Assembly (NCBI GenBank): GCA_007122455.1
Contig: SKTU01000035.1
Coordinates: forward strand, 1-32,883
DNA: 32,883 bases
Reading direction: 5' to 3'
Source of the DNA: Haloarculaceae archaeon
Lineage (GTDB): Archaea > Halobacteriota > Halobacteria > Halobacteriales > Haloarculaceae
Both the position numbers and the translations under genes were made by a program. Below are positions 7,338 through 30,041 of this stretch, in pieces; position 1 is the first letter of the stretch; every line of letters starts with the position of its first letter. A model generated the notes under the pieces. The model saw nothing but the letters and a program-made list of their open reading frames with translations. It did no database searches and was not told where the DNA came from.

Positions 7338-8666
7338 TCAGTCGATCATCGCGGCGTCGGAGACGTCGAGCGCGTCGTCGAGAACCGAAACCGCCTCGTC
7401 GATGTCGGATTCTGTGATCGTCAACGGCGGTGCGATGATCAGCGTGTTGATCATGTTCGCGACGTAGACGCCGCCGTCCGCTGCGGCACCCGAGACCTCG
7501 TCGACGACCGTCGACCCCTTCGACACCTTGTCCTCGCGGACGCCGAACGGGACGCGCTCCTCGGAACTCTTCGTCAGCTCGATCCCACGGAAGAGTCCGA
7601 CGCCGCGAACGTCACCGACGCTCGGGTGGCTCTCCTTGAGCTCCTCGAGTCGGTCCCCGAGATATTCGCCGACCTCGCTCGCGTACTCGACGAGGTTCTC
7701 CCTCTGGTAGGTTTCGACGGCTGCGAGCCCGGCCGCACAGGCGACCGGGTGGCCGGCGTAGGTGTGGCCGTGACAGAACATGTTCTCCTCGAAGTGGTCG
7801 GCGATCTCGGGAGTGACGATCGTCGCACCCAGAGGGGCGTAGGCGCCAGTGAGCCCCTTTGCCATCGTCATGATGTCCGGCGTCACGTCGAAGACGTCAC
7901 AGCCGAACCATTCGCCAGTCCGACCGAAGCCGGCCATGACTTCGTCACAGATCAGAAGCGCGTCGTGATCGTGAGCGATCTCCTTGAGCCGCGGGAGATA
8001 CTCCTTCGGAGGGACGAGGATCCCGTTGGAGCCGACGATCGGCTCGACGAGGATCGCTGCGACGGTATCGCCCTCGAGCATCAGCATCTCGTCGATGTAG
8101 TCGAGGCTCTCCATCGGATCGAGCGTCGAACCGTAGGCGTACGGGTCGGGTGCCTTGATCGTGCCGGGTATACCGGGTTCGGCGGCGAGGCGTCGGGGGT
8201 CGCCGGTGACGCTGATCGAGCCGTAGGTCGCCCCGTGGTAGGAGCGGTACCGGGAGATGATTTTCTGTTTGCCCGTGTACATGCGGGCGATCTTGATCGC
8301 CGCTTCGACGGCCTCGGTCCCGCTCGTCGAGAAGAACGTCTTCGAGAGGTTCCCCGGCGTCACTTCGGCGAGCTTCTCGCCCAGCTTCGCGCGAGCCTCG
8401 GTCGCGAACCCCGGCGCGAAGTACGCTCCCTGCTCGGCTTGCTTGGCCATCGCGTCCGAAACGGCGTCGGCCGAGTGGCCGAGGTTCGAGCACATGAGCT
8501 GTCCGGAGAAGTCGATCCACTCGTTGCCGTGGGCGTCGCGGAAACGAACGCCCTCACTGCCGACGATCTCCGTCGGATCGACCTCGCTCTGGTACGACCA
8601 CGTGCCGAACACGTACTCCTTGTCGAGACGCTCTACGTCCGTTTTCTGCTCTTCCATCTCGGCCAT
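7338..8666 (-). CDS. Class III PLP-dependent aminotransferase
   Basis: A 442-aa omega-type aminotransferase. The PLP signature is complete: STSGTEAVEAA in the phosphate-binding region, YRSYHGATYGS, Asp251 in LLICDEVMAGFGRTGEWFG, and Lys270 in MTMAKGLTGAYAPLGA as the Schiff-base lysine. This subgroup includes enzymes acting on 4-aminobutyrate, taurine, beta-alanine and ornithine, and the substrate cannot be told from sequence. Lengths and motifs are normal. An alternative start is the internal Met four codons in (MEEQKTDVERLD). It stands alone: 98 bp upstream is the MATE gene in the same direction. It could supply amino-group removal for the catabolic locus further along, but nothing links them directly. 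Confidence 0.9.
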   Translation of the reverse strand: MAEMEEQKTDVERLDKEYVFGTWSYQSEVDPTEIVGSEGVRFRDAHGNEWIDFSGQLMCSNLGHSADAVSDAMAKQAEQGAYFAPGFATEARAKLGEKLAEVTPGNLSKTFFSTSGTEAVEAAIKIARMYTGKQKIISRYRSYHGATYGSISVTGDPRRLAAEPGIPGTIKAPDPYAYGSTLDPMESLDYIDEMLMLEGDTVAAILVEPIVGSNGILVPPKEYLPRLKEIAHDHDALLICDEVMAGFGRTGEWFGCDVFDVTPDIMTMAKGLTGAYAPLGATIVTPEIADHFEENMFCHGHTYAGHPVACAAGLAAVETYQRENLVEYASEVGEYLGDRLEELKESHPSVGDVRGVGLFRGIELTKSSEERVPFGVREDKVSKGSTVVDEVSGAAADGGVYVANMINTLIIAPPLTITESDIDEAVSVLDDALDVSDAAMID

Positions 8667-11298: not shown

Positions 11299-11745
11299 TC
11301 AGTACGGCGACTCGGCCGAGAGATCCTTCTTGAACGTGTAGCAGTATTTCTCCATCCCGTTGTCCTCGTAGAAGCGGTGGGCCTCGTCCCGCCACAGCCC
11401 GGAAGCGAGTTCGACGCACGAACAGTCCCGCTCGTCGGCCCACTCGCTTACCCACTCGAGGAGCCGTCCGCCGTACCCCTGACCGCGGTACGGTTCGTCG
11501 ACGACGAGGTCGTGAACCCACGCGTGCTTGCCGTGATAGAGGTTCGTCTGGACGACGACGCCGGCGAGACCGCGGATCTCACCGTCCTCCCGGAGCGCGA
11601 ACAGCTGGTAATCGCTCTCCGCTCGCATCTGCTGGAGTAGCTGCGGAAACGCTTCCTCGCCGACCGGACGCAACTGGTCCAAAACTGGATACGCTTCCTC
11701 GAACTCGGCCTCTGTCGTTAGTTCGGTGATGTCGTCGGCGGACAT
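11299..11745 (-). CDS. GNAT-family N-acetyltransferase
   Basis: A 148-aa acetyltransferase of the GNAT fold, transferring acetyl from acetyl-CoA to an amine. The acetyl-CoA pyrophosphate loop is clear: VVDEPYRGQGYGGRLLEWV (R-G-x-G-Y-G). The following AHRFYEDNGMEK is the usual end of the fold. The substrate is unknown. A TATA-like GTAAATAAAG on the plus strand at 11765-11774 (read on the minus strand) lies about 25 bp upstream of the start, supporting a near-leaderless transcript from the ATG at 11745. Confidence 0.88.
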   Translation of the reverse strand: MSADDITELTTEAEFEEAYPVLDQLRPVGEEAFPQLLQQMRAESDYQLFALREDGEIRGLAGVVVQTNLYHGKHAWVHDLVVDEPYRGQGYGGRLLEWVSEWADERDCSCVELASGLWRDEAHRFYEDNGMEKYCYTFKKDLSAESPY

Positions 11746-16006: not shown

Positions 16007-16042
16007 GTGGGGATTGAAGTCAGCTCCCGGAGTATGCGGTCC

Positions 16043-16855
16043 ATGGACTGGCAGATCGATCACGTGGTGGTTGCTGGCCGGGATCTCGATTCGCTCCAGC
16101 GTTCGTTCGCCGAGGCGGGGCTCGATGCGCCGTACGGTGGCGAACACGCCAACGGCGTCACGCACAACTGCATTCTCGGCTTCCCCGACGGGTCGTACTT
16201 CGAGCTGATCGGAAAACTCGGCGACGGCGAACCGCCCTGGTGGACGCGACAGATCGAGGGCGACGCGGGTCCGACCGCCTGGGCGCTCGTCGTCGACGAC
16301 ATCGAGGCGGCCGCGGCCGAACTCGCCGATCGCGGCGTCACCGTCGAGGAGCCCAACCGGCACGGACGCGAGCGCCCCGACGGAACCCCGATCGAGTGGG
16401 AGATGGCGATCGTCGGCGAGGAACTCGGGACCTCCCTCCCGTTCCTCATCCAGGACCGAACGCCTCGAACGGATCGGGTGTATCCGACGGGTGAGCCCGC
16501 GGATATCGGGGTCGAGGGCGTCTCGGAGCTCGTTCTCGCCGTCTCGGATCTGGAGGCGAGCGTCGACCGGTTCCGGGCGTTCTTCGACGCGGCCGAACCC
16601 ACCGTCCGCGAGCGGACGTTCTTCGGCGCCGAGGCGGCGCGCTTCGACGGCGCCCCAGTCACGCTCCTTCGAGCCAGCGACGACGAGACGCTCTCCGAGC
16701 GCGTCGACAGCTACGGGGACTGCCTGACCGCGTTGTTCTTCGAGACGACGAACGACGCGGATCTCGCGACGACCTCGACCGAGGAGTGGTTCGACAGATC
16801 GGTTTCGCTCCTCGACGTCGACGTCGACGGCTGGTACGGAGCGCTCAATCCGTAG
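16043..16855 (+). CDS. VOC-superfamily (glyoxalase-like) protein
   Basis: A 270-aa protein of the vicinal-oxygen-chelate fold, matching the glyoxalase-like domain pattern: IDHVVVAGRDLD with the first metal-ligand-like His, HNCILGFPDGSYFELIG with the first Glu, then a second half beginning ISELVLAVSDLE-like residues (VSELVLAVSDLEASVDRFRAFF). The reaction is unknown; members include dioxygenases, lyases and resistance proteins. A GGAG at 16029-16032 is 10 nt before the ATG at 16043, which is why I choose it over the ATG at 16034 or the GTG at 16007. It starts 36 bp after dinB in the same direction and may be co-transcribed. Confidence 0.8.
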   Translation: MDWQIDHVVVAGRDLDSLQRSFAEAGLDAPYGGEHANGVTHNCILGFPDGSYFELIGKLGDGEPPWWTRQIEGDAGPTAWALVVDDIEAAAAELADRGVTVEEPNRHGRERPDGTPIEWEMAIVGEELGTSLPFLIQDRTPRTDRVYPTGEPADIGVEGVSELVLAVSDLEASVDRFRAFFDAAEPTVRERTFFGAEAARFDGAPVTLLRASDDETLSERVDSYGDCLTALFFETTNDADLATTSTEEWFDRSVSLLDVDVDGWYGALNP

Positions 16856-16896: not shown

Positions 16897-17304
16897 ATGG
16901 AACCGATCCCCGAGGAGTTTCTCGATCTGTTCGACAAGCCCGCGATCGCGACGATCGCGACGCTGCTCCCGGACGGTCAGCCGCACAACGTCCCCGTCTG
17001 GGTCGGGTACGACGGATCCGACGTGCTCGTGGTCACCCGGCGGGCGACCAGAAAGTACAGAAATATCCGGCGGGATCCTCGAGCCACGGTAACGATCGTC
17101 GATCCGGACGACCCCAGCCGCTACGTGGAGGTACGCGGAACGGTCGAGACGCGTGACGACGACGATCCGCTCGAGGTGGTCGACCGGTTCGCCGACCGGT
17201 ACTGGAACGTCGAGAAGTATCCCCACTCCCGCGAGGCCGATCGGGCGCTGTTGCGGATACGCCCCGAACACGTCTCCGGGCGGCGAATCGAAACGCCCGA
17301 TTGA
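16897..17304 (+). CDS. PPOX-class F420/FMN-dependent oxidoreductase
   Basis: A 135-aa split-barrel flavin/F420 protein of the pyridoxamine-phosphate-oxidase-like class. Typical features are the opening PAIATIATLLPDGQPHNVPVW, the strand VLVVTRRATRKYRNIRRDPRATVTI and the end LLRIRPEHVSG. The R-K-x-R-N-I-R-R-D-P segment is the phosphate-binding loop for FMN or F420. The substrate is unknown; F420 is likely because haloarchaea make it. A TATA-like AGCTATTTG about 27 bp upstream of the ATG supports this start. Confidence 0.87.
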   Translation: MEPIPEEFLDLFDKPAIATIATLLPDGQPHNVPVWVGYDGSDVLVVTRRATRKYRNIRRDPRATVTIVDPDDPSRYVEVRGTVETRDDDDPLEVVDRFADRYWNVEKYPHSREADRALLRIRPEHVSGRRIETPD

Positions 17305-17333: not shown

Positions 17334-17714
17334 TTACTCGTCAGTGGGCGGTCGCCCGTCGTTCTCGGCTGGCGGCGCACCGACGACGAGCCAGACGTGC
17401 TCACCCTCCGTGTCGTTGAGGATCTGCCGTGGCGTCTCCGGCGGGATCCGGATCGCTGTGCCTTCGGGAACGTCCCGCGGCTCCCCGTCGGCGCCGATCC
17501 TGATCCGTCCCGGTCCCTCGAGGACGTAGTAGAACTCCTCCTGCTCGGTCTGTCGGTGGAAGCTCATCGCGTCGCCCGGCGAGAGATACCACACCTTCGG
17601 TCGCATTTCGGTGCAGCCGAGCTCCTCGACGAGGTCGACGTGCAACGTTCCGGATTTCGCTGAGGGCTTCGGCTCGGCCTGCGTTACGTCTATTTCACTG
17701 TATTCGTCGGTCAT
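17334..17714 (-). CDS. Cupin-domain protein
   Basis: A 126-aa single-cupin protein. The first cupin motif is seen as MSFHRQTEQEEFYYVLEGPGRIRIG (His and Glu ligands), and the second as AIRIPPETPRQILNDTEGEHVWLVVG, in which the usual His is replaced or shifted. The ligand may be a sugar or a small acid, or it may act as a regulator-like binding protein. It lies 48 bp downstream of SDR1 on the same strand, so the two should form one transcript, and it belongs to the putative catabolic locus. Confidence 0.83.
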   Translation of the reverse strand: MTDEYSEIDVTQAEPKPSAKSGTLHVDLVEELGCTEMRPKVWYLSPGDAMSFHRQTEQEEFYYVLEGPGRIRIGADGEPRDVPEGTAIRIPPETPRQILNDTEGEHVWLVVGAPPAENDGRPPTDE

Positions 17715-17762
17715 GGCTTCGATACCGATCGAGAGGTGTTAAATCCCGGCCCTGTAGTCTGT

Positions 17763-18575
17763 TCAGGTTCCCTTGCTCCCCCAGCCGAAGGCGGTGAAGC
17801 CGCCGTCAGCGCGCATCGTCTCGCCGGTCATGTAGTGGTCGCCCTTGGCGAGAAACACCATGCAGTTGTTCATCTCCTCGATCGTTCCGAACCGGTCGAG
17901 CGGCGTTCGATTGTGGATGTGCTGATCCGTGTATCCGTAGTAGGGCCACGTATCGAAGTCTTCCGACTCCTCGTCGCCGCGGGTCTGTTCGTCGATCTGC
18001 GTCTTGATGAACCCCGGTGCCAGTGCGTTGACGTGGATGTCGTGTTCGGCGAACTCGACGGCGAGACACCGCGTCAGGTTGTGAACGCCGCCCTTCGAGG
18101 CACAGTACGGCCCACGGCCCTGTGCGCCGGAGAAGCCGTACGCGCTGCCGATGTTGATGATCTGTCCGCCGTCGTTCTGCTGGATCATCTGTTGGGCGGC
18201 GGCCTGGCAGCCGAAGAAGACGCCGGTGAGGTTGACGTCGATCACCCGCCGCCACTCCTCCTCGGTCATCTCGACGGCGGGCTTGATCACCGAGGTGCCG
18301 GCGTTGTTGACCATGATATCGAGACTGCCGAACTCCTCGACCGCGCCGTCGACGAGCGTCTGGACGTCCGCTCGGTTGCTGGTGTCGGCCTCGATCGCGA
18401 TGGCACTCCCCCCGGCTTCACGGATCAACTCCGCTGTGGTCTCCGCTCGCTCCTGGCTTCGCGAGTTCGTCACCACGTTCGCCCCTTCCTCGGCGAACCG
18501 GAGGGCCGTCCCCTCGCCGATCCCGCTGCTCGATCCCGTTACGACAGCCGTCTGCCCCGCTAGCTCTCCGGACAT
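17763..18575 (-). CDS. Short-chain dehydrogenase/reductase (SDR1)
   Basis: A 270-aa classical SDR oxidoreductase. The cofactor motif is TGSSSGIG at 13-20, NNAG at 90-93, and the catalytic set Ser144, Tyr157 and Lys161 (YCASK). The region after strand beta-2 is NSRSQER, which suits NADP(H) more than NAD(H). The C-terminus ends FGWGSKGT, as does SDR2 (21887-22705). The two proteins share a 40-residue identical stretch (102-141) with nearly identical DNA, though other segments differ. The substrate is probably an alcohol, sugar or hydroxy acid of the locus. It is divergent from the ThDP enzyme. Confidence 0.92.
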   Translation of the reverse strand: MSGELAGQTAVVTGSSSGIGEGTALRFAEEGANVVTNSRSQERAETTAELIREAGGSAIAIEADTSNRADVQTLVDGAVEEFGSLDIMVNNAGTSVIKPAVEMTEEEWRRVIDVNLTGVFFGCQAAAQQMIQQNDGGQIINIGSAYGFSGAQGRGPYCASKGGVHNLTRCLAVEFAEHDIHVNALAPGFIKTQIDEQTRGDEESEDFDTWPYYGYTDQHIHNRTPLDRFGTIEEMNNCMVFLAKGDHYMTGETMRADGGFTAFGWGSKGT

Positions 18576-18601
18576 GTGAGTAGATAACTGTGAACACGGA
18601 C

Positions 18602-18645
18602 TAATAATTTTCTCCGGGAGGTCGGAGTCCCCCCGAAAATCATTA
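18602..18645. promoter_or_regulatory. Mirror-image divergent promoters
   Basis: TAATAATTTTC at 18602-18612 and GAAAATCATTA at 18635-18645 form an inverted repeat with one mismatch. Read towards each gene, both arms are cGAAAATyATTA: a BRE-like purine tract plus an AT-rich TATA part. They end 26 bp before the SDR1 start and 23 bp before the ThDP enzyme start, the right place for two leaderless core promoters. Confidence 0.6.
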
Positions 18646-18668
18646 CCACCCCTTCCGTACGCCCCGAC

Positions 18669-20336
18669 ATGAACGGAGCCACGGCAGTTGTTCGATCGCT
18701 CGAGGCACACGACGTCGACTACGTTTTCGGCGTCTGCGGGGACACGAGCATCGGGCTCTACCGCGCACTCGAGGAGCTGGATCACGAGTTGACGCACGTT
18801 CTCGCCCGCGACGAGCGGGCCGCGGCGTTCATGGCCGACGCGTACGCTCGGCTCTCGAAGAAACCCGGGGTCTGTGAGGGGCCGAGCGGCGGCGGGGCGA
18901 CGTACCTGCTTCCCGGTATCGCCGAGGCGAACGACTCGTCGATTCCCGTCGTTTCGCTCAACACGAACATTCCGGTCCGATACCGGGGACGGGGGGTACT
19001 CACCGAACTGGACCAGGGAGATATCTTCGACTCGGTGACGAAGTGGAACCGCGTCGTCGACCACGCGGATCTGGTCCCGGGTTCGGTGCGGCAGGCGTTC
19101 CGGCAGGCGACGACGGGTCGTCCGGGAGCGACGCATCTATCCCTCCCGATGGACGTTCTCGACGGCGAAACCGACGAGGCGGTCTATGCGGACGAAGACG
19201 TCACGCGCTACCCGGCGTACCGTCCAGATCCGGATCCCGAGCGGATCAATCGCGCGGCGGCCGTTCTGGAGTCCGCCGAGCGTCCGGTGATCGTCGTGGG
19301 GGGCGGCGTCCACTCCTCGCGAGCGTGGGACAGCCTTCGGAAACTGGCCGAAACGGTCGGCGTGCCGGTCGCACAGACGCTGACGAGCGCCGGCGCGATC
19401 GGCTCGTCGCCCTATTCGATCGGCGTCGTCGGCGAGAACGGCTCCCGCGAGTACGCAAACGAGATCGTCCGCGAGGCCGACGCGCTGTTGCTCCTCGGAA
19501 CCGCGGTCGAGAGCGTCTGGACGGAAAAGTGGTCCCAGCCAGCGGACGGCGACACACGGATCGTCCACGCCGACGTCGACGCCGGATCGATCGGGAAGAA
19601 CTACCGGACCGAAGTCGCGCTCCCGGGAGACCTCCGGAAGACGATCGACGCGCTCCGTGGGGTCGTCGATCCACAACCCAACTGGAGCGAGACCGAACTC
19701 GAACGGCGACACCGCGAGTGGATCGAGCCGTTCGCCGCGGCGTTCGATGCCGAGGAGTTCCCGATCCGCCCCGAGCGGATGGTCGCCGGCGCGCGGGAGG
19801 TTCTCGACGACGACGCCGTCATCGTTTCCGATCCCGGAACCTCCTGTCCGTATTTCGCTGCACTGTACGAGTTCCGCACGGTCGGTCGCAACTGGCTCAC
19901 GCCGCGGGCTCACGGCGCGCTCGGATACACGATTCCCGGCGTCGTCGGTGCCCAGGTCGCACGGCCAGAGTCACAGGTCGTGGGCTTCACCGGCGACGGC
20001 AGCTTCGGAACGTCGGCCGGCGACCTGGAGACGATCGCTCGGCTCGACCTCCCAGTCACGGTCGTTGTGGTGAACAACGACGCCTTCTCGTGGATCGAGG
20101 CGGGCCAGCGGAGCCACGCGGAGTTCTCCTTCGGCGTCGATTTCGACGGCGTCGACTACGCCGGCGTCGCCGAGGCGTGCGGCCTCGCGGGATACCGAGT
20201 CGAATCGGCCGACGACTACGAGCCGACGCTCCGTGCAGCGGTCGAAGATGACGGGCCGGCACTCGTCGATCTTCCGACCCGTCCGCTTCCGTCTCTCCCG
20301 AACACCCCGGTCGACTGGCTCGAACCGGACGAGTAG
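18669..20336 (+). CDS. ThDP-dependent enzyme, acetolactate-synthase-like
   Basis: A 555-aa thiamine-diphosphate enzyme with the three-domain layout of acetolactate synthase, oxalyl-CoA decarboxylase, sulfoacetaldehyde acetyltransferase and benzoylformate decarboxylase. The N-terminal Pyr domain has the activating Glu49 (ARDERAAAFMADAYAR). The central domain begins near residue 190. The PP domain holds the ThDP/Mg motif TGDGSFGTSAGDLET at about 441 followed by VVVVNND. The FAD-binding residues of true acetolactate synthases are not obvious, and no ilvN-like small subunit is adjacent, so leucine/valine synthesis is unlikely. I infer decarboxylation or ligation of a 2-oxo acid in the locus. Confidence 0.9.
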   Translation: MNGATAVVRSLEAHDVDYVFGVCGDTSIGLYRALEELDHELTHVLARDERAAAFMADAYARLSKKPGVCEGPSGGGATYLLPGIAEANDSSIPVVSLNTNIPVRYRGRGVLTELDQGDIFDSVTKWNRVVDHADLVPGSVRQAFRQATTGRPGATHLSLPMDVLDGETDEAVYADEDVTRYPAYRPDPDPERINRAAAVLESAERPVIVVGGGVHSSRAWDSLRKLAETVGVPVAQTLTSAGAIGSSPYSIGVVGENGSREYANEIVREADALLLLGTAVESVWTEKWSQPADGDTRIVHADVDAGSIGKNYRTEVALPGDLRKTIDALRGVVDPQPNWSETELERRHREWIEPFAAAFDAEEFPIRPERMVAGAREVLDDDAVIVSDPGTSCPYFAALYEFRTVGRNWLTPRAHGALGYTIPGVVGAQVARPESQVVGFTGDGSFGTSAGDLETIARLDLPVTVVVVNNDAFSWIEAGQRSHAEFSFGVDFDGVDYAGVAEACGLAGYRVESADDYEPTLRAAVEDDGPALVDLPTRPLPSLPNTPVDWLEPDE

Positions 20337-20352
20337 CTCGACGCTCGGTCGA

Positions 20353-20664
20353 TCACCGGTACGTGCAGCAGTATTCGACGAGTTCGTCGACGTCGACGGT
20401 GAACGTCGTCCCCGCGTCGACGACGAACGACTCTCCGGCTCCGTACGTCTCGGTCGATCCGTCGAGTTCGACGGTCAACTCACCCGCGTACAGCTCGATC
20501 AGCTCTTCCTCGCTGGTATCGAACTCGTACCGACCGGGTTGCATGATGCCGAGCGTCTTCCTGACGCCGTCCTCGGTGACGAGTTCCCGACTCGTCACGT
20601 CGCCGTCGTAGTAGACGTTTGCACGTTTCGTCACTTCGACGTTCTCGAATTTCGTCTCCGTCAT
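20353..20664 (-). CDS. ppnP: Pyrimidine/purine nucleoside phosphorylase-like cupin (PpnP)
   Basis: A 103-aa cupin of the PpnP (DUF1255) family, whose bacterial members cleave nucleosides with phosphate. The family pattern is visible: FENVEVTKRANVYYDGDVTSR, GIMQPGRYEFDT, EELIELYAGELTVEL, AGESFVVDAGTTFTV and the terminal EYCCTY. The usual length is about 94. The ATG at 20664 gives MTETKFENV and fits. A TATA-like TTTAGT on the minus strand around 20690 lies about 27 bp upstream. Its place between the ThDP enzyme and the amino-acid dehydrogenase is unexpected for nucleoside metabolism, so it may serve another ligand here. It is convergent with the ThDP gene. Confidence 0.82.
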   Translation of the reverse strand: MTETKFENVEVTKRANVYYDGDVTSRELVTEDGVRKTLGIMQPGRYEFDTSEEELIELYAGELTVELDGSTETYGAGESFVVDAGTTFTVDVDELVEYCCTYR

Positions 20665-20743
20665 ACACCGCTGGCATGCCTCGCGGATCACTAAACGATT
20701 GCCCCAACATTAATGAGTTCACGAACTGAAATCGGTCCGGACA

Positions 20744-21841
20744 ATGGTTGGCATTCACACGCAGATGGGCGAGCACGGACACAGCGAACTCAAGGCCTTC
20801 CGGGACGACGCGGTCGGGCTTCGGGGTCTCATCGCGATTCACGACACGACGCTGGGTCCCGCTGCGGGCGGAACGCGACGGTACGCCTTCGAGTCCGAGG
20901 AGGAGGCCGTCGTCGATGCGCTCCGGCTCTCCCGCGCGATGACGTACAAGTACGCCATCTCCGGCATCAACATGGGCGGTGCCAAGGGCGTGATATGGGT
21001 CGAGGACGACGACCACAACAGCGAGGAGCTCTACCGCGCGTACGGTCGGATGGTCGACAGCTTCGGCGGGCGTTTCGTGACGGGAGGCGACGTCGGAACG
21101 GACGAGCGGGAACTGCGCTGGATCAACATGGAGACCGATTACGTGCTCGGCCTTCCCGAGCAGTTCGACCACCCGGAGAACTACCACGGCGGCGGATTGG
21201 GCGTGATTCGGGCGATGGAAGCCTGCTGTGAACTGGAGTACGACGGCCGCGAACTCGGCGATCTTCACGTGACCGTTCAGGGGCTCGGCGACATGGGTTC
21301 CAGTATCGTCCACTACCTCCACGAGCGTGGCGCGCAGATCACCGTCTCCGACATCGACGCCGAGCGGGTCGACGAGGCGGTCGACGAGTACGGCGCCGGC
21401 ACGGTCGCCCCCGACTCGGTCTACGACGTCGACTGTGACGTCTTTGCCCCCTCGGCGCTCGGTTTCGTCCTCAACGACGAGACGATTCCCCGGCTGAACT
21501 GCGACATCGTCTGCGGCGCCGCGAACAACCAGCTCGACGACGAGGATCGACACGGATGGATGCTCCAGGAGGCGGGCATTCTATACGCGCCGGACTATCT
21601 CGCGAATTCGGGGCGGACGATCGACGACACGGATCTCCTCCGGAAGGGTGGCTACAAGCACGATCGAGCGCGGGCGATGATCGACGGAATCGCCGACCGG
21701 ATGGTCGAAATCGGGCGTCGTGCCGAACGCGAAGAGCGACCGACCCACGAGATCGCGAACGAACTCGCCGAGGAGCGAATCGAGGCGATCGACCGGATGC
21801 GGCCGAAGGTACACGACGTCAGGCGTCCGGAGCTGAAATGA
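20744..21841 (+). CDS. Leu/Phe/Val dehydrogenase-like amino-acid dehydrogenase
   Basis: A 365-aa protein of the Glu/Leu/Phe/Val dehydrogenase family, matching leucine dehydrogenase in length and pattern: AIHDTTLGPAAGGTRRY, MTYKYAISGINMGGAKGV with both family lysines, FVTGGDVGTDERELRW, the NAD-binding VQGLGDMGSSIVHYLHERGA, and CGAANNQLDDEDRHGWML with ILYAPDYLANSG. The reaction should be oxidative deamination of a branched or aromatic amino acid to its 2-oxo acid with NAD+. The glycine loop is GLGDMG instead of the common GxGxVG. It is followed by SDR2 after 45 bp in the same direction and is probably co-transcribed. Confidence 0.9.
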   Translation: MVGIHTQMGEHGHSELKAFRDDAVGLRGLIAIHDTTLGPAAGGTRRYAFESEEEAVVDALRLSRAMTYKYAISGINMGGAKGVIWVEDDDHNSEELYRAYGRMVDSFGGRFVTGGDVGTDERELRWINMETDYVLGLPEQFDHPENYHGGGLGVIRAMEACCELEYDGRELGDLHVTVQGLGDMGSSIVHYLHERGAQITVSDIDAERVDEAVDEYGAGTVAPDSVYDVDCDVFAPSALGFVLNDETIPRLNCDIVCGAANNQLDDEDRHGWMLQEAGILYAPDYLANSGRTIDDTDLLRKGGYKHDRARAMIDGIADRMVEIGRRAEREERPTHEIANELAEERIEAIDRMRPKVHDVRRPELK

Positions 21842-21886
21842 CGCGGCGAACCCCCCAAACGATCGGGAGAAGTGGCCCGGGTTCAG

Positions 21887-22705
21887 ATGACTGAACGGTT
21901 CACGGACCGGACAGTGATCGTGACCGGGTCCAGCGACGGGATCGGTCGAGGGATCGCCGAGCGTTTCGCCGCGGAGGGGGCGAGCGTCGTCATCAACTCC
22001 CGAGCGTACGACCGTGCCGCGGCCACGGCTACCGAGATCGCCGAGGCTGGTGGTACGGTAGTGGCCGTCGAGGCCGACGTGAGCGATCGAAACGCGGTTC
22101 GCCGTCTCGTCGACGAAACTGTCGAGGAGTTCGGGAGCCTCGACGTCATGGTCAACAACGCCGGCGTGACCGCGGTCGAACCGGCGGTTGAGATGACCGA
22201 GGAGGAGTGGCGGCGGGTGATCGACGTCAATCTCACCGGCGTCTTCTTCGGCTGCCAGGCCGCCGCCCAACAGATGATCCAGCAGAACGACGGCGGACAG
22301 ATCATCAACGTCTCCAGCATCTTCGGCCGCGTCGGCGTCCCGGGTCGTGCGCCCTACTGCGCTTCGAAAGCCGCCGTGGACAACCTGACGCGGTGTCTCG
22401 CCGTCGAGTTCGCCGAACACGACATCCACGTCAACGCGCTCGCTCCCGGTCCGGTGCGCACGTCGATGGCCGAGGACGCAGGGACGGATGCGAATGTGGA
22501 TGCGGAGACCGACGCCGAGTGGCCCCGCTACTCGTACGGACCGAACGACGTCGAGCGCTGGACGCCGCTCTCTCGGTACGGATCGATACAGGAGATGGGG
22601 TCGTGTGCGCTCTTTCTCGCATCGGACGACAACTACGTCACCGGGGAGACGCTCGTCGCGGACGGTGGATGGCTCGCCTTCGGGTGGGGGAGCAAGGGGA
22701 CGTAA
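21887..22705 (+). CDS. Short-chain dehydrogenase/reductase (SDR2)
   Basis: A 272-aa classical SDR and paralogue of SDR1. TGSSDGIG is at 13-20, NNAG at 90-93, Ser143/144 in NVSSIFG, and Tyr157/Lys161 in YCASK. The end is FGWGSKGT, as in SDR1. Residues 102-141 are identical to SDR1 and the underlying 120 bp (22190-22309) differ at one base; a second block of 58 bp (22380-22437) is identical. The stretch 201-240 differs and is the likely substrate loop. The ATG at 21887 keeps the register with SDR1; an upstream in-frame start at 21872 would add MARVQ. It follows the amino-acid dehydrogenase. Confidence 0.92.
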   Translation: MTERFTDRTVIVTGSSDGIGRGIAERFAAEGASVVINSRAYDRAAATATEIAEAGGTVVAVEADVSDRNAVRRLVDETVEEFGSLDVMVNNAGVTAVEPAVEMTEEEWRRVIDVNLTGVFFGCQAAAQQMIQQNDGGQIINVSSIFGRVGVPGRAPYCASKAAVDNLTRCLAVEFAEHDIHVNALAPGPVRTSMAEDAGTDANVDAETDAEWPRYSYGPNDVERWTPLSRYGSIQEMGSCALFLASDDNYVTGETLVADGGWLAFGWGSKGT

Positions 22706-22849
22706 TGTTCGTGTAAACGACCTCGAGCGCGGTGGCCCGTGTCTTCGCCGTGGGCTCTGGCGCGAGGCCAGCGGAACGACCAAACGGTGATTGCGAATTT
22801 AATTCCGCTCGCGCTCGTCCGTATAAAGACTCGTGTGGAACCAGTAACA

Positions 22850-22983
22850 CCCGAATACACTGTGTGAGCCACCGTAACGGCGGTTGCCTGTTGCTGCCGT
22901 CACGGGTGTGTCCGTGGGCGTCCGCCCCTTCACGAGGGGGCGACACAGGCCCGAAGCCGGTCGAAAGTCGGGAACTTTCGTTT
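22850..22983 (+). ncRNA. Candidate structured RNA, unproven
   Basis: If GTATAAAG at 22821-22828 is a TATA box, a transcript would begin near 22850. It would contain the pair TGTGTC (22907-22912) and GACACA (22942-22947) enclosing GCCCC (22924-22928) with GGGGC (22937-22941). It would end at the hairpin CGAAAGT-CGGGA-ACTTTCG (22962-22980) plus TTT, which resembles a terminator. The size would be about 130 nt. No known RNA family is recognised. A relic of a transposon end with subterminal hairpins is an alternative. Confidence 0.3.
22962..22983 (+). terminator. Hairpin with short T tail
   Basis: The perfect stem CGAAAGT / ACTTTCG with a 5-nt loop (22969-22973) is followed by TTT. This looks like an intrinsic terminator, but archaeal terminators usually rely on T runs alone and this run is short. 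Confidence 0.4.
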
Positions 22984-23033
22984 AGACAGTTAATCACAGT
23001 AGCATTTATTAGTGATGCCTCATATCACGAGAT

Positions 23034-23189
23034 ATGTTAGCCCAAGCCATGCTGTTCGGACTTCCAGCATTGACCGTCCTAGCGTTCCTTCTCGTTTGGA
23101 GCTTACTTCTCGTTGCGTACGTTCTCTATCGAATCGATATGGAGCGGGCAGACGGCTACATCTCCATTTTCGGATGGAGGGGTGAATAA
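23034..23189 (+). CDS. 51-aa membrane microprotein, symporter partner
   Basis: A small protein not found by length-limited gene calling: MLAQAMLFGLPALTVLAF begins it, one transmembrane helix spans about residues 8-33 (ending LLLVAYVLYRID), and a short polar tail ends ISIFGWRGE. Its TAA overlaps the ATG of the symporter by one base (TAATG), so the two are translationally coupled. Small single-helix partners next to SSS-family symporters are known in bacteria (for example YhdT with PanF), which is the analogy I draw; sequence homology to those is not visible. An AT-rich promoter-like element lies 20-30 bp upstream of the ATG. Confidence 0.75.
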   Translation: MLAQAMLFGLPALTVLAFLLVWSLLLVAYVLYRIDMERADGYISIFGWRGE

Positions 23190-24664
23190 TGTCGATGATG
23201 CTTTCGGTTACGTTCGGAATCTATCTACTCTCCCTCATCGCGATCGGTGTTTACTTTTATTTCCAGGACGATGCCACGCTTCCCCGGGAGTATCTGATCG
23301 CGGATCGGAACGTCGGTCCGTGGCCGATGGCGTTCTCACAGATCGCGTCCATGGCGAGCGGATGGACGTTCTTCGCGTGGGTCGGTATCGGGTTCACGCT
23401 CGGCTTCTTCGGGTTCTGGTGGGCGTTCATTACGGTCGCACTATACATCCTGTTGTACCGCTATCTCGCGCCCAAGTTCCGGCGACAGTCCGAGGAACTC
23501 GACTCGATCACGATGGTCGACCACCTCTCGCGGTTTTACGAGGCCCGCGGGAGCGAGATGGCAAGCGTGATCCGGCTGATCGGCGGCATCACCGTGCTTG
23601 TATTCCTGACCGCGTACGTCGGCGCCCAGATCATCGCTGTCGGCGACGCTGCCGACATCGGGCTCGGAATCGATTACACGACGGCGATCGTCGTCGGCGG
23701 AGTCGCGGTCGCGCTGTACACCGGGCTCGGCGGATTCAACGCCTCCGTCTGGACGGACTTCCTGCAGGGAATTCTGATGGTCTTCCTCGCGTTCGCGCTC
23801 CCGGTCGCGCTGATCGCGAACATCGGTGGTTGGGGGACGTTCGCTTCCCGGGCGACGACGGAGTATCCGAACCTCGTCAGCCTGAGTGCCGGTCTGGGAA
23901 CCGTCGATCTGATCACGCTGATGGCGATCTTCGGGACGTTCGCCATCGCCGCGATCGGACAGCCTCACTCGCTCGTCCGGTTCCAGGCGATCGAGTCCGA
24001 GCGGGTGATCAGCAAGGCGATGGTGATCGCGATGTTCATCTCCGCGACGCGGATGACGATGCCGTTGCTGATCGGCGTGAGCGCACGCGTGCTCTACGAG
24101 ACGGCCGAGGCGCTTCCCGCCGCGAACCCGGAGAACGCCGCGATGTTCGCCATCGTCGATCTCTTCCCCGCGTGGCTGGCTGGCATCCTGCTCGCCGGCG
24201 TCGTGAGCGCGATCCTCTCGACGAGCGACTCGATGCTTCTGCTGTTGACCTCGGACGCGATCCGACTGTACGAGAAGTACATCAATCCGGACGCGAGTCA
24301 GCAGCGGAAAGTCGTTCTCAGCCGGCTTCTCGTCGCTACCGTCGCCCTCTTCGGTGTCGTCATCGCGTTCTTCCGGCCGGGAACGCTGTTCGACATCATC
24401 CTGTTCGCGTTCGTCGGACTCGGGGTCGCACTCGGCTTGCCGCTCGTGTTGCTCCTCTTCTGGGATCGAATGACCGCCGAGGGCGTCGTCGCCGGGCTCG
24501 TGGTCGGGCTGGGATCGAACATCGTCCACGCGTTCTGGATCGCCACCGACCTCTACCCGATCTTCACGTGGCCGGTGACGATCGTCGCCATCCTCGGCGT
24601 CTGTCTGGTAACCGGGGGCGAACGAGAGGTGACCCAGCCGGCCGGCGCGACGCCGGAGGATTGA
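23189..24664 (+). CDS. Sodium/solute symporter (SSS family)
   Basis: A 491-aa membrane transporter of the sodium:solute symporter family, with about thirteen hydrophobic segments. Family marks are the substrate/Na+ region FSQIASMASGWTFFAWVGIG in the first helices, AYVGAQIIAVGDAADIGLG, the SSF signature around YTGLGGFNASVWTDFLQG, and GVVSAILSTSDSMLLLLTS in helix 8 with the Ser residues of the Na2 site. It resembles proline/pantothenate-type members. The substrate is probably an organic acid or amino acid fed to the surrounding catabolic genes. It is coupled to the 51-aa membrane protein upstream and convergent with the Rieske gene. Confidence 0.93.
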   Translation: MSMMLSVTFGIYLLSLIAIGVYFYFQDDATLPREYLIADRNVGPWPMAFSQIASMASGWTFFAWVGIGFTLGFFGFWWAFITVALYILLYRYLAPKFRRQSEELDSITMVDHLSRFYEARGSEMASVIRLIGGITVLVFLTAYVGAQIIAVGDAADIGLGIDYTTAIVVGGVAVALYTGLGGFNASVWTDFLQGILMVFLAFALPVALIANIGGWGTFASRATTEYPNLVSLSAGLGTVDLITLMAIFGTFAIAAIGQPHSLVRFQAIESERVISKAMVIAMFISATRMTMPLLIGVSARVLYETAEALPAANPENAAMFAIVDLFPAWLAGILLAGVVSAILSTSDSMLLLLTSDAIRLYEKYINPDASQQRKVVLSRLLVATVALFGVVIAFFRPGTLFDIILFAFVGLGVALGLPLVLLLFWDRMTAEGVVAGLVVGLGSNIVHAFWIATDLYPIFTWPVTIVAILGVCLVTGGEREVTQPAGATPED

Positions 24665-24755
24665 GCGCGCAAGGAGTCGGCGTCCGGTTTTCGGGGCGGT
24701 AGCGCTTCTCGCGGACGTTTCGAACGTTCGGGTGACGATAAGTGCTGACTCTGCC

Positions 24756-25124
24756 CTATCGGACGATGTACAGTTCGCCGTCCCGCTTTTCGACGTCGTA
24801 CGTCGGGACGACGTACCGGCTGTCGCTGACGTTCGTCCCGTCCGTGATGTCGAACTTCCAGCCGTGCCACGGACAGACGACGTGTTTTTCCTCGTCGTCG
24901 TACGTCCACTCCCAGCCGTCCTCGTCGGTCGTCATTCGACCGGTGAGCCGCCCCTCACAGAGCGGTCCCGCCTGATGCACGCAGAAGTTCAGGACGGCGT
25001 AATACTCCCCGTCGTACCGGAACACCGTTATCTCCTGTCCGTCGACGTCGACCGTGATTCGCGCTCCGTCCTCGTCCAACCGATCGGCGTTGGGGACCCG
25101 ATGTTCCGTTGGCGACCTGCTCAT
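24756..25124 (-). CDS. Stand-alone Rieske [2Fe-2S] protein
   Basis: A 122-aa Rieske-type ferredoxin. Cluster ligands are Cys48 and His50 (FCVHQAGPL) and Cys84 and His87 (CPWHGWKFD). The spacing of 33 residues between the two pairs is longer than the usual 15-17, because of an insert TGRMTTDEDGWEWTYDDEEK. The rest is normal: the EYYAVLNF strand before the first pair and RYVVPTYDVEKRDGELYIV at the end. It is likely an electron donor to an oxygenase or a redox subunit; no oxygenase lies in the window. The ATG overlaps the amidohydrolase stop by 4 nt (ATGA), so it is translationally coupled to it. Confidence 0.9.
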   Translation of the reverse strand: MSRSPTEHRVPNADRLDEDGARITVDVDGQEITVFRYDGEYYAVLNFCVHQAGPLCEGRLTGRMTTDEDGWEWTYDDEEKHVVCPWHGWKFDITDGTNVSDSRYVVPTYDVEKRDGELYIVR

Positions 25125-26260
25125 GCTTCGATTCCGAAGAGATCCGCTGCGTTCTTCCCCATGATCTTCTCGACCGCCTCGTCGTCGAACTGTGACCGAA
25201 TGCGGTCGAACAGCTCCGCCGGGAGATCGAAGTCGGGGTGTGGGAGGTCGGCGGAGTACATGACGGAGTCGGGGCCGATCATCTCGATGATCTGTGCGAT
25301 GTGTCGCCCGTCACGGGCCGTGTGACCGAGCGGTTGCGTGGTGAAGTAGAACTGGTCGCTGATGTACTCGCTCGGGAGCTTCTCCAGTACCGGGACGTCG
25401 TGAGGAAGCTCCAGATAGTGGTCGTCGAGCCGCCACGTCATGTACGGGATCCAGCCGATTCCCGCCTCGTTGAAGACGAACTCGACATCCGGGAACCGCT
25501 CCGGCGTACCGTTGAACAGGAGCGAGGAGAGGTTCCACATGTGCGTGAACGGGTGCATTATCGCGTGCTCCTCGGCGTACGTCTGGGACCAGTTGTGCTG
25601 CATCGGGAACGACCTGTGAACTGCTCCCGTGTTGGAGTGGTAGTGAACCGGGAGGTCGTGTCGCTGAGCCGCCTCGTAGATGGGATCGTACCGTCGATCT
25701 CCCGCGGCCGGAACCAGCCCTGCCGGCGGGATCAGTACGCCGACGACGCTATCCTCGTCGGCCCACTCGTCGATCTCCTCGGCCGCGCGGTTCGGCTCGT
25801 GCGGTGCGACGACCATTATGTTGCTGATCCGGTCGCTGTCGGCGAAGTTGTCGATCAGATAGCGGTTGTACGCGCTCACGAGCGCGCGTGCGATCCGGGA
25901 GTTGTTGACCGTGTTCACGACCGCGACGAGCGTCGGGTTGACGATCGAGTGGTCGATGCCGTACTCGTCCATCAGATCGTGCTTCCCCTCGATGTCGTTC
26001 GCGCCGCTCCAGAGATCGACGTCGGCGGTCCCCTCGTCCTGCCCGTCGGGGAAGATCGGCGTCGGGGCGGTGATGGAGAAGATGTCGCTGAACGGGATCT
26101 CCGAGAGCTTTATCAGCTGCTTGATCCCCTCGTCCCGGTCGTCCATGTACGGATAGAGGTCGTCGACACTCTCGGTCAGGTGGGAGTCGGCATCCACGAC
26201 GAGTCCGACGTCGTCGATCGACGTCACGCTCGAACGTGCCTGTGATTGACTTGCTACCAT
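25121..26260 (-). CDS. Amidohydrolase-2 family protein (ACMSD-like)
   Basis: A 379-aa metal-dependent hydrolase or decarboxylase of the amidohydrolase_2 group, which includes ACMSD and the decarboxylases of resorcylate and 5-carboxyvanillate. Visible residues are VVDADSHLTES at about 21-30 (the usual D-x-D-x-H variant of the first metal motif), LPVHYHSNTGA in the middle, HPFTHMWNLSSLLFNGTPERFPDVEFVFNE and the Asp motif MYSADLPHPDFD near the C-terminus. The reaction is not predictable: C-C hydrolysis or decarboxylation of a ring product is typical. It is the first gene of a two-gene operon with the Rieske protein, and a TATA-like element lies near 26287 on the minus strand. Confidence 0.88.
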   Translation of the reverse strand: MVASQSQARSSVTSIDDVGLVVDADSHLTESVDDLYPYMDDRDEGIKQLIKLSEIPFSDIFSITAPTPIFPDGQDEGTADVDLWSGANDIEGKHDLMDEYGIDHSIVNPTLVAVVNTVNNSRIARALVSAYNRYLIDNFADSDRISNIMVVAPHEPNRAAEEIDEWADEDSVVGVLIPPAGLVPAAGDRRYDPIYEAAQRHDLPVHYHSNTGAVHRSFPMQHNWSQTYAEEHAIMHPFTHMWNLSSLLFNGTPERFPDVEFVFNEAGIGWIPYMTWRLDDHYLELPHDVPVLEKLPSEYISDQFYFTTQPLGHTARDGRHIAQIIEMIGPDSVMYSADLPHPDFDLPAELFDRIRSQFDDEAVEKIMGKNAADLFGIEA

Positions 26261-28907: not shown

Positions 28908-30041
28908 ATGAGCTTTCGACTCACCGCCGAGCAGGCGGCGATCCGGGAGGCGGTCCGGAGCTTCGGCGACGAAGAGATCCGGCCGGTTGCCAGCGCCTAC
29001 GAGGACGACGAGCGGTATCCGGCGGCGCTTCTCGAGGCGGCGGCGGAACTGGATCTCGTCGCCCCGCACGTCCCCGAGGCGTACGGCGGTGCGGGAACGG
29101 ATCCGGTTTCGACGGTGCTGATCACCGAGGAGCTGTGGCGAGCCGACCCTGGAGTCGGCGGTTCGATCTCGGCTGCCGACTTCGGGACCGGAATGATTCT
29201 CGAGTACGGTGACGAGTGGATGAAGGAGAAGTGGCTCCCGAAGATCACGGCGGGAGAGACGCCGATCGCGACCGGCATCTCCGAACCGGCCCACGGATCG
29301 AACGTCGCGGGGATGGAGACGACCGCCGAGAAGGACGGCGGCGACTACGTCATCAACGGCACCAAGATGTGGATCACCAACGGTAGCGTCGCCGACGTGG
29401 CGATCATCATGGCAAAGAGTTCACCCGAGGAGGGCCACGCCGGCATCACCGCGTTTCTCACTCCGACTGACGTCGACGGCTACGACGCGACGCGCATCGA
29501 CAACAAGCTCGGGATCCGCGCACAGGACACCGCCGAGATCGTTCTGGACGACCTCCGGGTTCCCGAGGGGAACGTCGTCGGTGAGCTGGATCGCGGCTTC
29601 TACCAGCTGATGGAGTTTTTCGCCCCCGCGAGGGTCGACGTCGCCGGACAGGCGGTCGGCGTGGCGCAGGCCGCACTCGAGGAGGCGCTCGACTACGCCG
29701 GCGAGCGCGAGCAGTTCGACCAGAAGATCGGCGAGTTCCAGGCGATCCGCCACAAGATCGCCGGGATGGCGACGGACGTCGAAGCCGCTCGCTCGCTGGC
29801 GTACCGTGCCGCCGAGGCGCTCTCCGGTGGCGAGGAGGCGACGCGGCTGGCGTCGATGGCGAAGCTGTTCGCCTCCGAACGCGCGGTCGAGGTGACCGAC
29901 GAGGCGGTTCAGGTTCACGGCGGTGCCGGCTACGTGAGCGACCACCACGTCGAGCGGTTCTACCGCGACGCCCGTATCACGAAGATCTACGACGGAACGA
30001 GCGAGATTCAGAAGAGCATCATCGCCGACGAGCTGGGCTAA
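28908..30041 (+). CDS. Acyl-CoA dehydrogenase
   Basis: A 377-aa FAD enzyme that introduces a trans-2,3 double bond into acyl-CoA thioesters in fatty- or branched-acid oxidation, passing electrons to ETF. The domain order is normal: helical N-domain ([15 protein letters not shown]), a beta domain with [18 protein letters not shown] and [14 protein letters not shown], and a C-terminal helical domain with [19 protein letters not shown] and [22 protein letters not shown]. The position of the usual catalytic base reads IYDGTSEIQ: Asp362 where most short- and medium-chain enzymes have Glu (YEGT). An Asp can still work but less well, or a Glu elsewhere may serve. The gene ends 4 nt inside the convergent aMBF1 gene. 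Confidence 0.93.

Follow-up and report, generated by a model that had tools for sequence, protein, structure and literature searches.

We investigated a locus at positions 17334-26260 of contig SKTU01000035.1 from a Haloarculaceae archaeon (assembly GCA_007122455.1); the entire contig of 32.9 kb is the window referred to below. The conserved module of this locus consists of four genes, not of the whole nine kilobases. These encode two short-chain dehydrogenases/reductases (SDR1 and SDR2), a PpnP-like cupin and an amino-acid dehydrogenase (DH) of the ELFV family, and the gene content, the linkage of this core and the retention of catalytic and metal-binding residues were observed directly. We consider it moderately probable that the four genes form the core of a rare catabolic module for an unusual polar L-alpha-amino acid. 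The amino acid is perhaps guanidino- or ureide-derived, and oxidative deamination together with decarboxylation would be the likely role of the module. The source assembly is a draft of 149 contigs, 87.4% complete and with 2.2% contamination; the kinship of its matches marks the window as haloarchaeal.

The linkage was measured in 391 sampled Halobacteria genomes, the genome of the window being G000 in this sample; per genome the best three candidates were scored for the thiamine diphosphate (ThDP) enzyme of the locus, the best five for the DH and the best six for SDR1. The DH was matched at E<=1e-100 in nine genomes and the PpnP family PF06865 in five, all of them DH-positive. The hypergeometric probability of this overlap is about 1.7e-9 if the genomes are taken as independent, which sampled genomes are not. 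Between the PpnP and DH matches of the five genomes lie 119, 143, 244, 932 and 2158 bp. SDR1 was matched at E<=1e-75 in 56 genomes, and the strongest matches make up 14 places of at least 357 bits (query included), the next score being 334. Twelve of these 14 are in DH-positive genomes, two each in G222, G075, G238, G441 and G000 and one each in G011 and G024, and the DH-negative remainder is in G147 and G116. The same five PpnP-positive genomes each have two close SDR homologues less than 20 kb from the DH. The second one is about 19 kb away in G075, 9.5 kb in G238 and 11 kb in G441, and the order PpnP, SDR, DH, SDR in G222 comes near the arrangement of the window.

SDR, PpnP and DH were found together across several genera, and the five carriers in the sample represent four. 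The PpnP and DH genes are divergent with a short gap in the window, G075, Natronorubrum, Natrinema and Halorarius; five divergent intergenic regions inspected by eye for a shared operator had little in common beyond a TATA-like stretch. A pattern scan of GTDB for the DH gave 12 loci. Eight are on haloarchaeal contigs and at least 71% identical, and a further one is at 56%; the Mycolicibacterium locus has 42% identity, and the two others are distant hits in bacteria at 26-28%. For the comparison of gene neighbourhoods we used 12 orthologous loci at 71% or more (the window, L028, L029, L043, L044, L045, L046/L117, L047, L048, L049, L050 and L069). This set leaves out the G040 copy, taken as a duplicate of L050, as well as the second Halocatena copy and that of G153, both at 56-57%. 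Within the stretches compared, PpnP is present in eight of the 12 loci and a close SDR in ten. SDR1 is 62-71% identical to the SDRs of ten other module stretches, and 64% identical to SDR2 at the protein level. Titles and the openings of abstracts, a coverage with most subscription papers outside it, gave no description of such a module.

The two SDR genes of the window share a tract of 344 nt (18013-18356 and 22106-22449) that is 86% identical and reaches 97-100% in 60-column blocks, while outside it the genes are mostly 47-77% identical. Judged from this pattern, gene conversion between the inverted paralogues is likely. A tree of SDRs intended to pair each window SDR with a paralogue was weakly supported and gave no assignment.

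It could be argued that catabolic genes have come together here by chance on a genomic island and share no pathway except as operon-mates. Judged from strand and spacing the genes, which lie on both strands, would fall into about six transcription units, in agreement with the at least five promoters named in an earlier sequence-only reading of this DNA. Five of the products, namely a Cupin_2 protein, the ThDP enzyme, an SSS-family symporter, a Rieske protein and a putative amidohydrolase-related dinuclear oxygenase (ARO), are without close homologues at the other loci with the module, and one relative carries its module on a 1.6-Mb plasmid. Against this, PpnP, the SDR pair and the DH occur together in five of the 391 sampled genomes, which represent four genera, and we regard a chance assembly as quite unlikely.

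The conservation of the remaining window genes was assessed against 15 module stretches of unequal lengths from 11 other genomes, with a cut-off of 40% or more in identity and 60% of the length. L049, L050 and L070 are not among the 15 and were included in a comparison of five genes with 17 stretches. At the cut-off, none of the five products named above had a homologue in the 15 stretches, for which reason a single conserved pathway spanning all 9 kb was rejected. The 17-stretch comparison, at any identity, returned only a 32% symporter of the same Pfam family, two genes behind the Halegenticoccus DH (L047), and ThDP proteins of 28-31% (L043/L116 and L051), those near the DHs of Natronorubrum and Halocatena being of 28-30%; for the Cupin_2 protein no homologue turned up. 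The sequence-only reading had inferred from adjacency a common pathway for the nine kilobases. Neighbourhood co-occurrence bears this out for the four core genes, the only ones to recur widely among the stretches compared, and not for the cupin, the ThDP enzyme, the symporter, the ARO and the Rieske protein.

Some weaker recurrences are given here without a background rate. The Glyoxalase_3-like protein has homologues of 41-45% in L113, L114 and L117, the PNPOx-like protein one of 45-47% adjoining an SDR in Natronorubrum (a single gene, seen in both L043 and L114), and the acyl-CoA dehydrogenase homologues of 58-60% in the stretches of three relatives (L028/L113, L046/L117 and L048). A class III aminotransferase at 7338-8666 has an 82% identical counterpart some 20 kb away from the Natronorubrum DH, with methylmalonate-semialdehyde dehydrogenase, dihydropyrimidinase-like and carbamoylase-family genes nearby. 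A small protein at 11299-11745 also recurs in some module stretches.

The DH has leucine dehydrogenases and the Nostoc tryptophan dehydrogenase as its nearest solved relatives. Its AlphaFold2 model (pLDDT 90.7) has leucine dehydrogenase 1leh as best fold match with a TM-score of 0.88, and the catalytic residues K68, K80 and D115 (1leh numbering here and below) are kept, as is N261. In the available text of PMC8766677, positions 40, 113, 291 and 294 are pocket-lining or specificity-altering, and position 290 of a phenylalanine dehydrogenase comes within 6 A. The window DH has A40, G113, R290, T291 and D294, and does not show the hydrophobic pocket L40/A113/V291/V294 of leucine dehydrogenase. 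The sequence-only reading had described the enzyme as Leu/Phe/Val-dehydrogenase-like; given the altered pocket, we regard these amino acids as disfavoured substrates. The clade of 13 haloarchaeal rows is monophyletic with a support of 100/100, and 12 of the 13 have G113, R290, T291 and D294; position 40 is A, T or G. D294 is found neither in 1leh nor in any of the 21 other ELFV dehydrogenases compared (10 haloarchaeal, 11 mycobacterial). The tree was built without eight rows of the table, six of them duplicates (L027, L030, L031, L032, L056 and L057) and two distant (L053 with Y294 and L054 with T294). We know of no ELFV enzyme for the predicted substrate class.

The same data bear on the possibility of an ordinary branched-chain or aromatic island, in which a Leu/Phe-type dehydrogenase would work with a 2-oxo-acid dehydrogenase, an acyl-CoA dehydrogenase and a hydratase. 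The solved relatives and the fold match would suit it, and so would the E1/E2, acyl-CoA dehydrogenase, enoyl-CoA hydratase and acyl-CoA ligase genes near the DH in relatives. The substitutions V291 to T, V294 to D, A113 to G and L40 to A, T or G speak against it, other haloarchaeal dehydrogenases of the family keep L40 and V294 (L033-L036, L038 and L039), and PpnP is left unexplained; we find it unlikely. A biosynthetic pair as in scytonemin formation, with a ScyB-like tryptophan dehydrogenase and a ScyA-like enzyme, is very improbable. ScyA is a ThDP acyloin synthase, in NCBIfam the DH matches ScyB best and an acetolactate-synthase-like enzyme lies next to it. However, the pair was rejected on the score of 310.2 bits, far under the ScyB equivalog cut-off of 600; the pocket is polar, and the other orthologous loci compared have the DH without this ThDP enzyme.

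Diverged copies of the DH (56-57%, with H294) were seen in Halocatena and G153, at L070 9495-10592 and L051 10001-11098, in the vicinity of genes that resemble, by eye, those of M20, class III aminotransferase and Gfo/Idh/MocA proteins.

The neighbours of the DH in relatives suggest that the amino acid is released from a ureide, a guanidine or a cyclic amide, the set varying by locus. An arginase-family gene adjoins the DH in three of the 12 haloarchaeal loci (Halospeciosus, Halobacterium bonnevillei and Halegenticoccus), creatininase-family genes are near it in Halospeciosus, H. bonnevillei, G075 and Natrinema, and hydantoinase A/B in Natronorubrum and Halegenticoccus. The Natronorubrum DH further has a carbamoylase-family gene and a methylmalonate-semialdehyde dehydrogenase nearby, and a Pot-like ABC transporter is near the DH in two loci, L044 (by profile scan) and L045 (by homology). 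The sole hint of sulfonated amino acids is a sulfopyruvate-decarboxylase-like two-part pair 9 kb from the Natronorubrum DH (L043 1-820/L116 1840-2959), whose 123 and 147 bits fall short of both cut-offs, 148 and 222. The Mycolicibacterium DH has a ThDP enzyme, a ureohydrolase, an M20 enzyme and members of the SHMT and class III aminotransferase families as neighbours. The second-best NCBIfam match of this ThDP enzyme is 5-guanidino-2-oxopentanoate decarboxylase (329 bits, cut-off 500), and the ureohydrolase is closest to 3-guanidinopropionase at 285 bits.

From such neighbours one might go further and propose a guanidino or otherwise cationic, arginine-like amino acid as substrate, with ThDP-dependent decarboxylation of 2-ketoarginine or an analogue and a ureohydrolase acting later. 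This is a narrower form of the explanation that we prefer, possible but on the doubtful side. The A40, G113 and D294 of the window DH are shared with the Mycolicibacterium DH, which adjoins the two guanidino-type enzymes just described, and the arginase-family genes and Pot-like transporters would fit as well. R290 is nevertheless present in the window DH, and the Mycolicibacterium DH, on a long branch, joins the clade at 72/84 only. For the arginase-family genes of haloarchaea formimidoylglutamase is the best match, with 215 and 200 bits against a cut-off of 229, and other relatives have hydantoinase, carbamoylase, creatininase-family or acyl-CoA genes instead. The ThDP enzyme of the window reaches 277.1 bits with the 2-ketoarginine decarboxylase model (PRK07524, AruI-type), whose cut-off is 500. 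No ureohydrolase is encoded in the window, and the two of the genome are on other contigs; as an orthologue of the module type they were rejected, the closer one being only 32% identical. A search for mycobacterial relatives of the Mycolicibacterium DH matched 39 of 151 genomes (its own included), the others at no more than 45% identity, and the 11 relatives examined have L40/A113/V294 pockets.

Returning to the polar amino-acid module, the decarboxylation step seems to differ between loci. E1alpha lies directly after the DH in six of the 12 orthologous loci, and E1beta is found behind the DH in four and E2 in three, some copies being counted by profile scan and others by clustering. E1alpha in this position fits a deamination followed by a decarboxylation. 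The ThDP enzyme of the window has no relative at E<=1e-110 in the other 390 genomes of the sample, and among the best 25 of 105 records it is 42-46% identical to proteobacterial plasmid enzymes. In the tree it groups with five plasmid enzymes at 100/99 and not with the paralogues of its own genome; the base composition of its gene resembles that of the neighbours. Five annotated plasmid neighbourhoods of these relatives hold GntR or LysR regulators, racemases and TTT/TRAP transporter genes. The enzyme is below the cut-off for the best 25 of 55 NCBIfam matches, and the model of the acetolactate synthase large subunit (TIGR00118) gave 349.3 bits with a cut-off of 538. BbmA and CsmA are among the names of its PDB hits, and the literature under these names gave nothing that helps to place it. 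We infer its role in the pathway from position only. Deamination followed by a ThDP step, as outlined in the sequence-only reading, gains from the E1alpha genes of the relatives, while the ThDP enzyme itself is not conserved. ThDP enzymes of other subfamilies were also seen 0.2-5 kb from ARO-Rieske pairs (L107 on contig C108, 6639-10269; L110 on C25, 3921-11829; and L092), in the genome of the window and in G137, too few cases for a test.

The PpnP-like cupin misses the NCBIfam PpnP equivalog cut-off of 143 with 45.3 bits, and solved PpnPs match it at 36-53 bits, compared with 63 bits for the UPF0345 protein 3hqx. The genome of the window has a second PF06865 copy on another contig, C67 (L076, 1734-8284), where it lies 4 kb from an ARO-Rieske pair, with CoA-transferase-like and MaoC-like genes (by eye) between or beside them.

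The last gene of the locus encodes a PF04909 protein that the sequence-only reading took for an amidohydrolase. Based on its solved matches and metal ligands it is most likely a dinuclear oxygenase, an ARO, fed by the Rieske ferredoxin. The five best distinct PDB sequences are 8sm7 (145 bits), 8sm9 (131), 8sm8 (126), AibH2 (6m1w_B, 112) and SfbO (8sm6, 110), and the available text of PMC10811679 names the 8sm7, 8sm9, 8sm8 and 8sm6 entries as AROs. PtmU3, another ARO, scores 44 bits, which counts against the assignment. A hydrolase or decarboxylase was rejected, as solved decarboxylases reach at most 54 bits versus 97-145 for AibH2/SfbO-type AROs and AibH1 (AibH1 chains at 97-98). The six dinuclear ligands of AibH2, given as D25, H27, H211, E265, D337 and H340 in the accessible part of PMC7782822, are all present when read from the alignment, as D25, H27, H208, E265, D338 and H341. 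The predicted activity is an O2-dependent hydroxylation with Fe2 or Mn/Fe.

The Rieske protein has its CxH...CxxH motifs as CVH at 48 and CPWH at 84, and its gene overlaps that of the ARO. A search with the ARO matched 23 of 126 genomes, and in all 15 loci returned (the window and 14 other genomes) a Rieske gene adjoins it. As far as the available text of PMC10401708 goes, a Rieske protein co-occurs with 90% of AibH2-like proteins and haloarchaea are already in the tree, hence the pair is of an already known type. The genome of the window has 14 ARO-like PF04909 places, nine of them with a Rieske gene within 0.6 kb, compared with at most five places in each of the other 22 matching genomes; some adjoin transporters (by eye).

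Taken together, we propose the following course, in which we infer the reactions, the substrate class and the links of the ThDP enzyme, the ARO and the symporter to the core. Using NAD(P)+, the DH would deaminate an unusual polar L-alpha-amino acid to a 2-oxo acid and ammonia, the substrate possibly being imported by the SSS symporter. In several relatives a lipoamide-type E1/E2 complex would decarboxylate the 2-oxo acid to an acyl-CoA; in the window the lone POX-family ThDP enzyme probably decarboxylates it to an aldehyde, or else carries out a carboligation. SDR1 and SDR2 would take alcohol, aldehyde or ketone redox steps, and the PpnP-like cupin would serve a dedicated, unspecified step. 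The ARO-Rieske pair, as a separate unit with an O2-dependent C-H hydroxylase and its electron carrier, may feed the pathway. Further, we speculate that the PpnP-like cupin has turned from nucleoside phosphorolysis to a partner of the DH, in combination with a new ELFV specificity, a guanidino or ureide substrate, a swapped decarboxylation step and a feed from the ARO, although we think this full combination rather doubtful.

Several observations weigh against the proposed module. Four of the nine DH-positive genomes (G011, G024, G041 and G153) have no PF06865 match anywhere, and two of them (G041 and G153) have no SDR1 match at E<=1e-75. The evidence on the substrate consists of pocket residues and variable neighbours only: R290 adjoins D294, which clouds the argument from charge and makes the pocket charge ambiguous, G113 also occurs in four of the 21 other dehydrogenases, and the second Halocatena copy and that of G153 have T290, I291 and H294. 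This ThDP enzyme is at the DH in the genome of the window only, the ThDP enzymes near the DHs of Mycolicibacterium, Halocatena and Natronorubrum belong to different subfamilies, and with 11 places in the genome of the window, its own included, the family is a common one. Housekeeping-type E1alpha and E1beta genes lie beside a lipoyl-synthase-like gene on another contig of that genome, and with this pair present a loss of E1/E2 was rejected as the reason for the ThDP enzyme.

The order of genes in the locus is cupin (-), SDR1 (-), ThDP enzyme (+), PpnP-like cupin (-), DH (+), SDR2 (+), microprotein (+), SSS symporter (+), Rieske protein (-) and PF04909 protein (-). Pfam profile searches recovered every gene family named in the sequence-only reading at its position. 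The starts of PpnP and SDR2 were shifted inward to fit gene models. The last base of the microprotein gene is the first base of the symporter ATG, an overlap of one base, and a Pfam search gave no family for the microprotein at E<=0.001.

Table 1. Features of the locus and three possible extra members in the window
Feature	Positions	Strand	Evidence	Remark
Glyoxalase_3-like protein	16034-16855	+	PF13468, 104.6 bits	Possible extra member
PNPOx-like protein	16897-17304	+	PF01243, 75 bits	Possible extra member
Cupin_2 protein	17334-17714	-	PF07883, 44.1 bits	Downstream of SDR1, same strand
SDR1	17763-18575	-	adh_short, 208.5 bits	Core module
POX/ALS-family ThDP enzyme	18669-20336	+	TPP_enzyme N/M/C domains	Within module
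PpnP-like (DUF1255) cupin	20353-20664	-	PF06865, 106.3 bits (cut-off 25)	Core module, divergent from DH
ELFV amino-acid dehydrogenase (DH)	20744-21841	+	ELFV_dehydrog_N, 84 bits	Core module, polar pocket
SDR2	21887-22705	+	adh_short, 218.5 bits	Core module
51-aa microprotein	23034-23189	+	Open reading frame; membrane span judged by eye	Coupled to symporter
SSS-family sodium:solute symporter	23189-24664	+	PF00474, 184.7 bits	
Rieske [2Fe-2S] ferredoxin	24756-25124	-	PF00355, 58.2 bits	Putative ARO partner
Probable amidohydrolase-related dinuclear oxygenase (ARO), AibH2/SfbO-like	25121-26260	-	PF04909 (Amidohydro_2), 117 bits	
Acyl-CoA dehydrogenase	28908-30041	+	PF00441, 182 bits	Possible extra member

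What had been a vague catabolic locus is now a four-gene module with a PpnP-like marker that occurs only with this DH in the Halobacteria sampled. The pocket of the DH clade predicts a substrate class, the supposed amidohydrolase is relabelled as a probable oxygenase, and the question of the substrate can be tested with one enzyme and one deletion strain.

Among known systems, the AibH1H2-AibG-AibF oxygenase (PMC7782822) and SfbO (PMC10811679) resemble the window ARO in the PF04909 fold, the six ligands and a small Rieske neighbour, as far as the available texts describe them; unlike in the former, no AibH1-like second subunit or AibF-like reductase was recognised beside the window ARO. The catabolism of 2-aminoisobutyrate (Aib) in Rhodococcus wratislaviensis follows a like logic in the accessible part of PMC7782822, with an ARO hydroxylase and Rieske protein, an alcohol dehydrogenase, an amino-acid dehydrogenase and a transporter. 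Its dehydrogenases are of the 3-hydroxyisobutyrate-, aldehyde- and alanine-dehydrogenase types, an SHMT-type decarboxylase is present, and Table 1 of that source lists no PpnP. The ThDP enzyme has three TPP domains in common with the acetolactate synthase/POX family (PRK06112, AlsS and AruI), but groups with uncharacterised proteobacterial plasmid enzymes. The nucleoside phosphorylase PpnP (DUF1255) and the cupin of the window share membership of PF06865 (106.3 bits), whereas the cupin misses the equivalog cut-off and its occurrence in the Halobacteria sample is restricted to DH-positive genomes. With leucine, phenylalanine and tryptophan dehydrogenases (1leh, 1c1d and 5b37) the DH shares the fold, K68, K80, D115 and the length; in contrast to 1leh, L40/A113/V291/V294 are replaced by A/G/T/D together with R290, and PpnP and two SDRs form the gene context.

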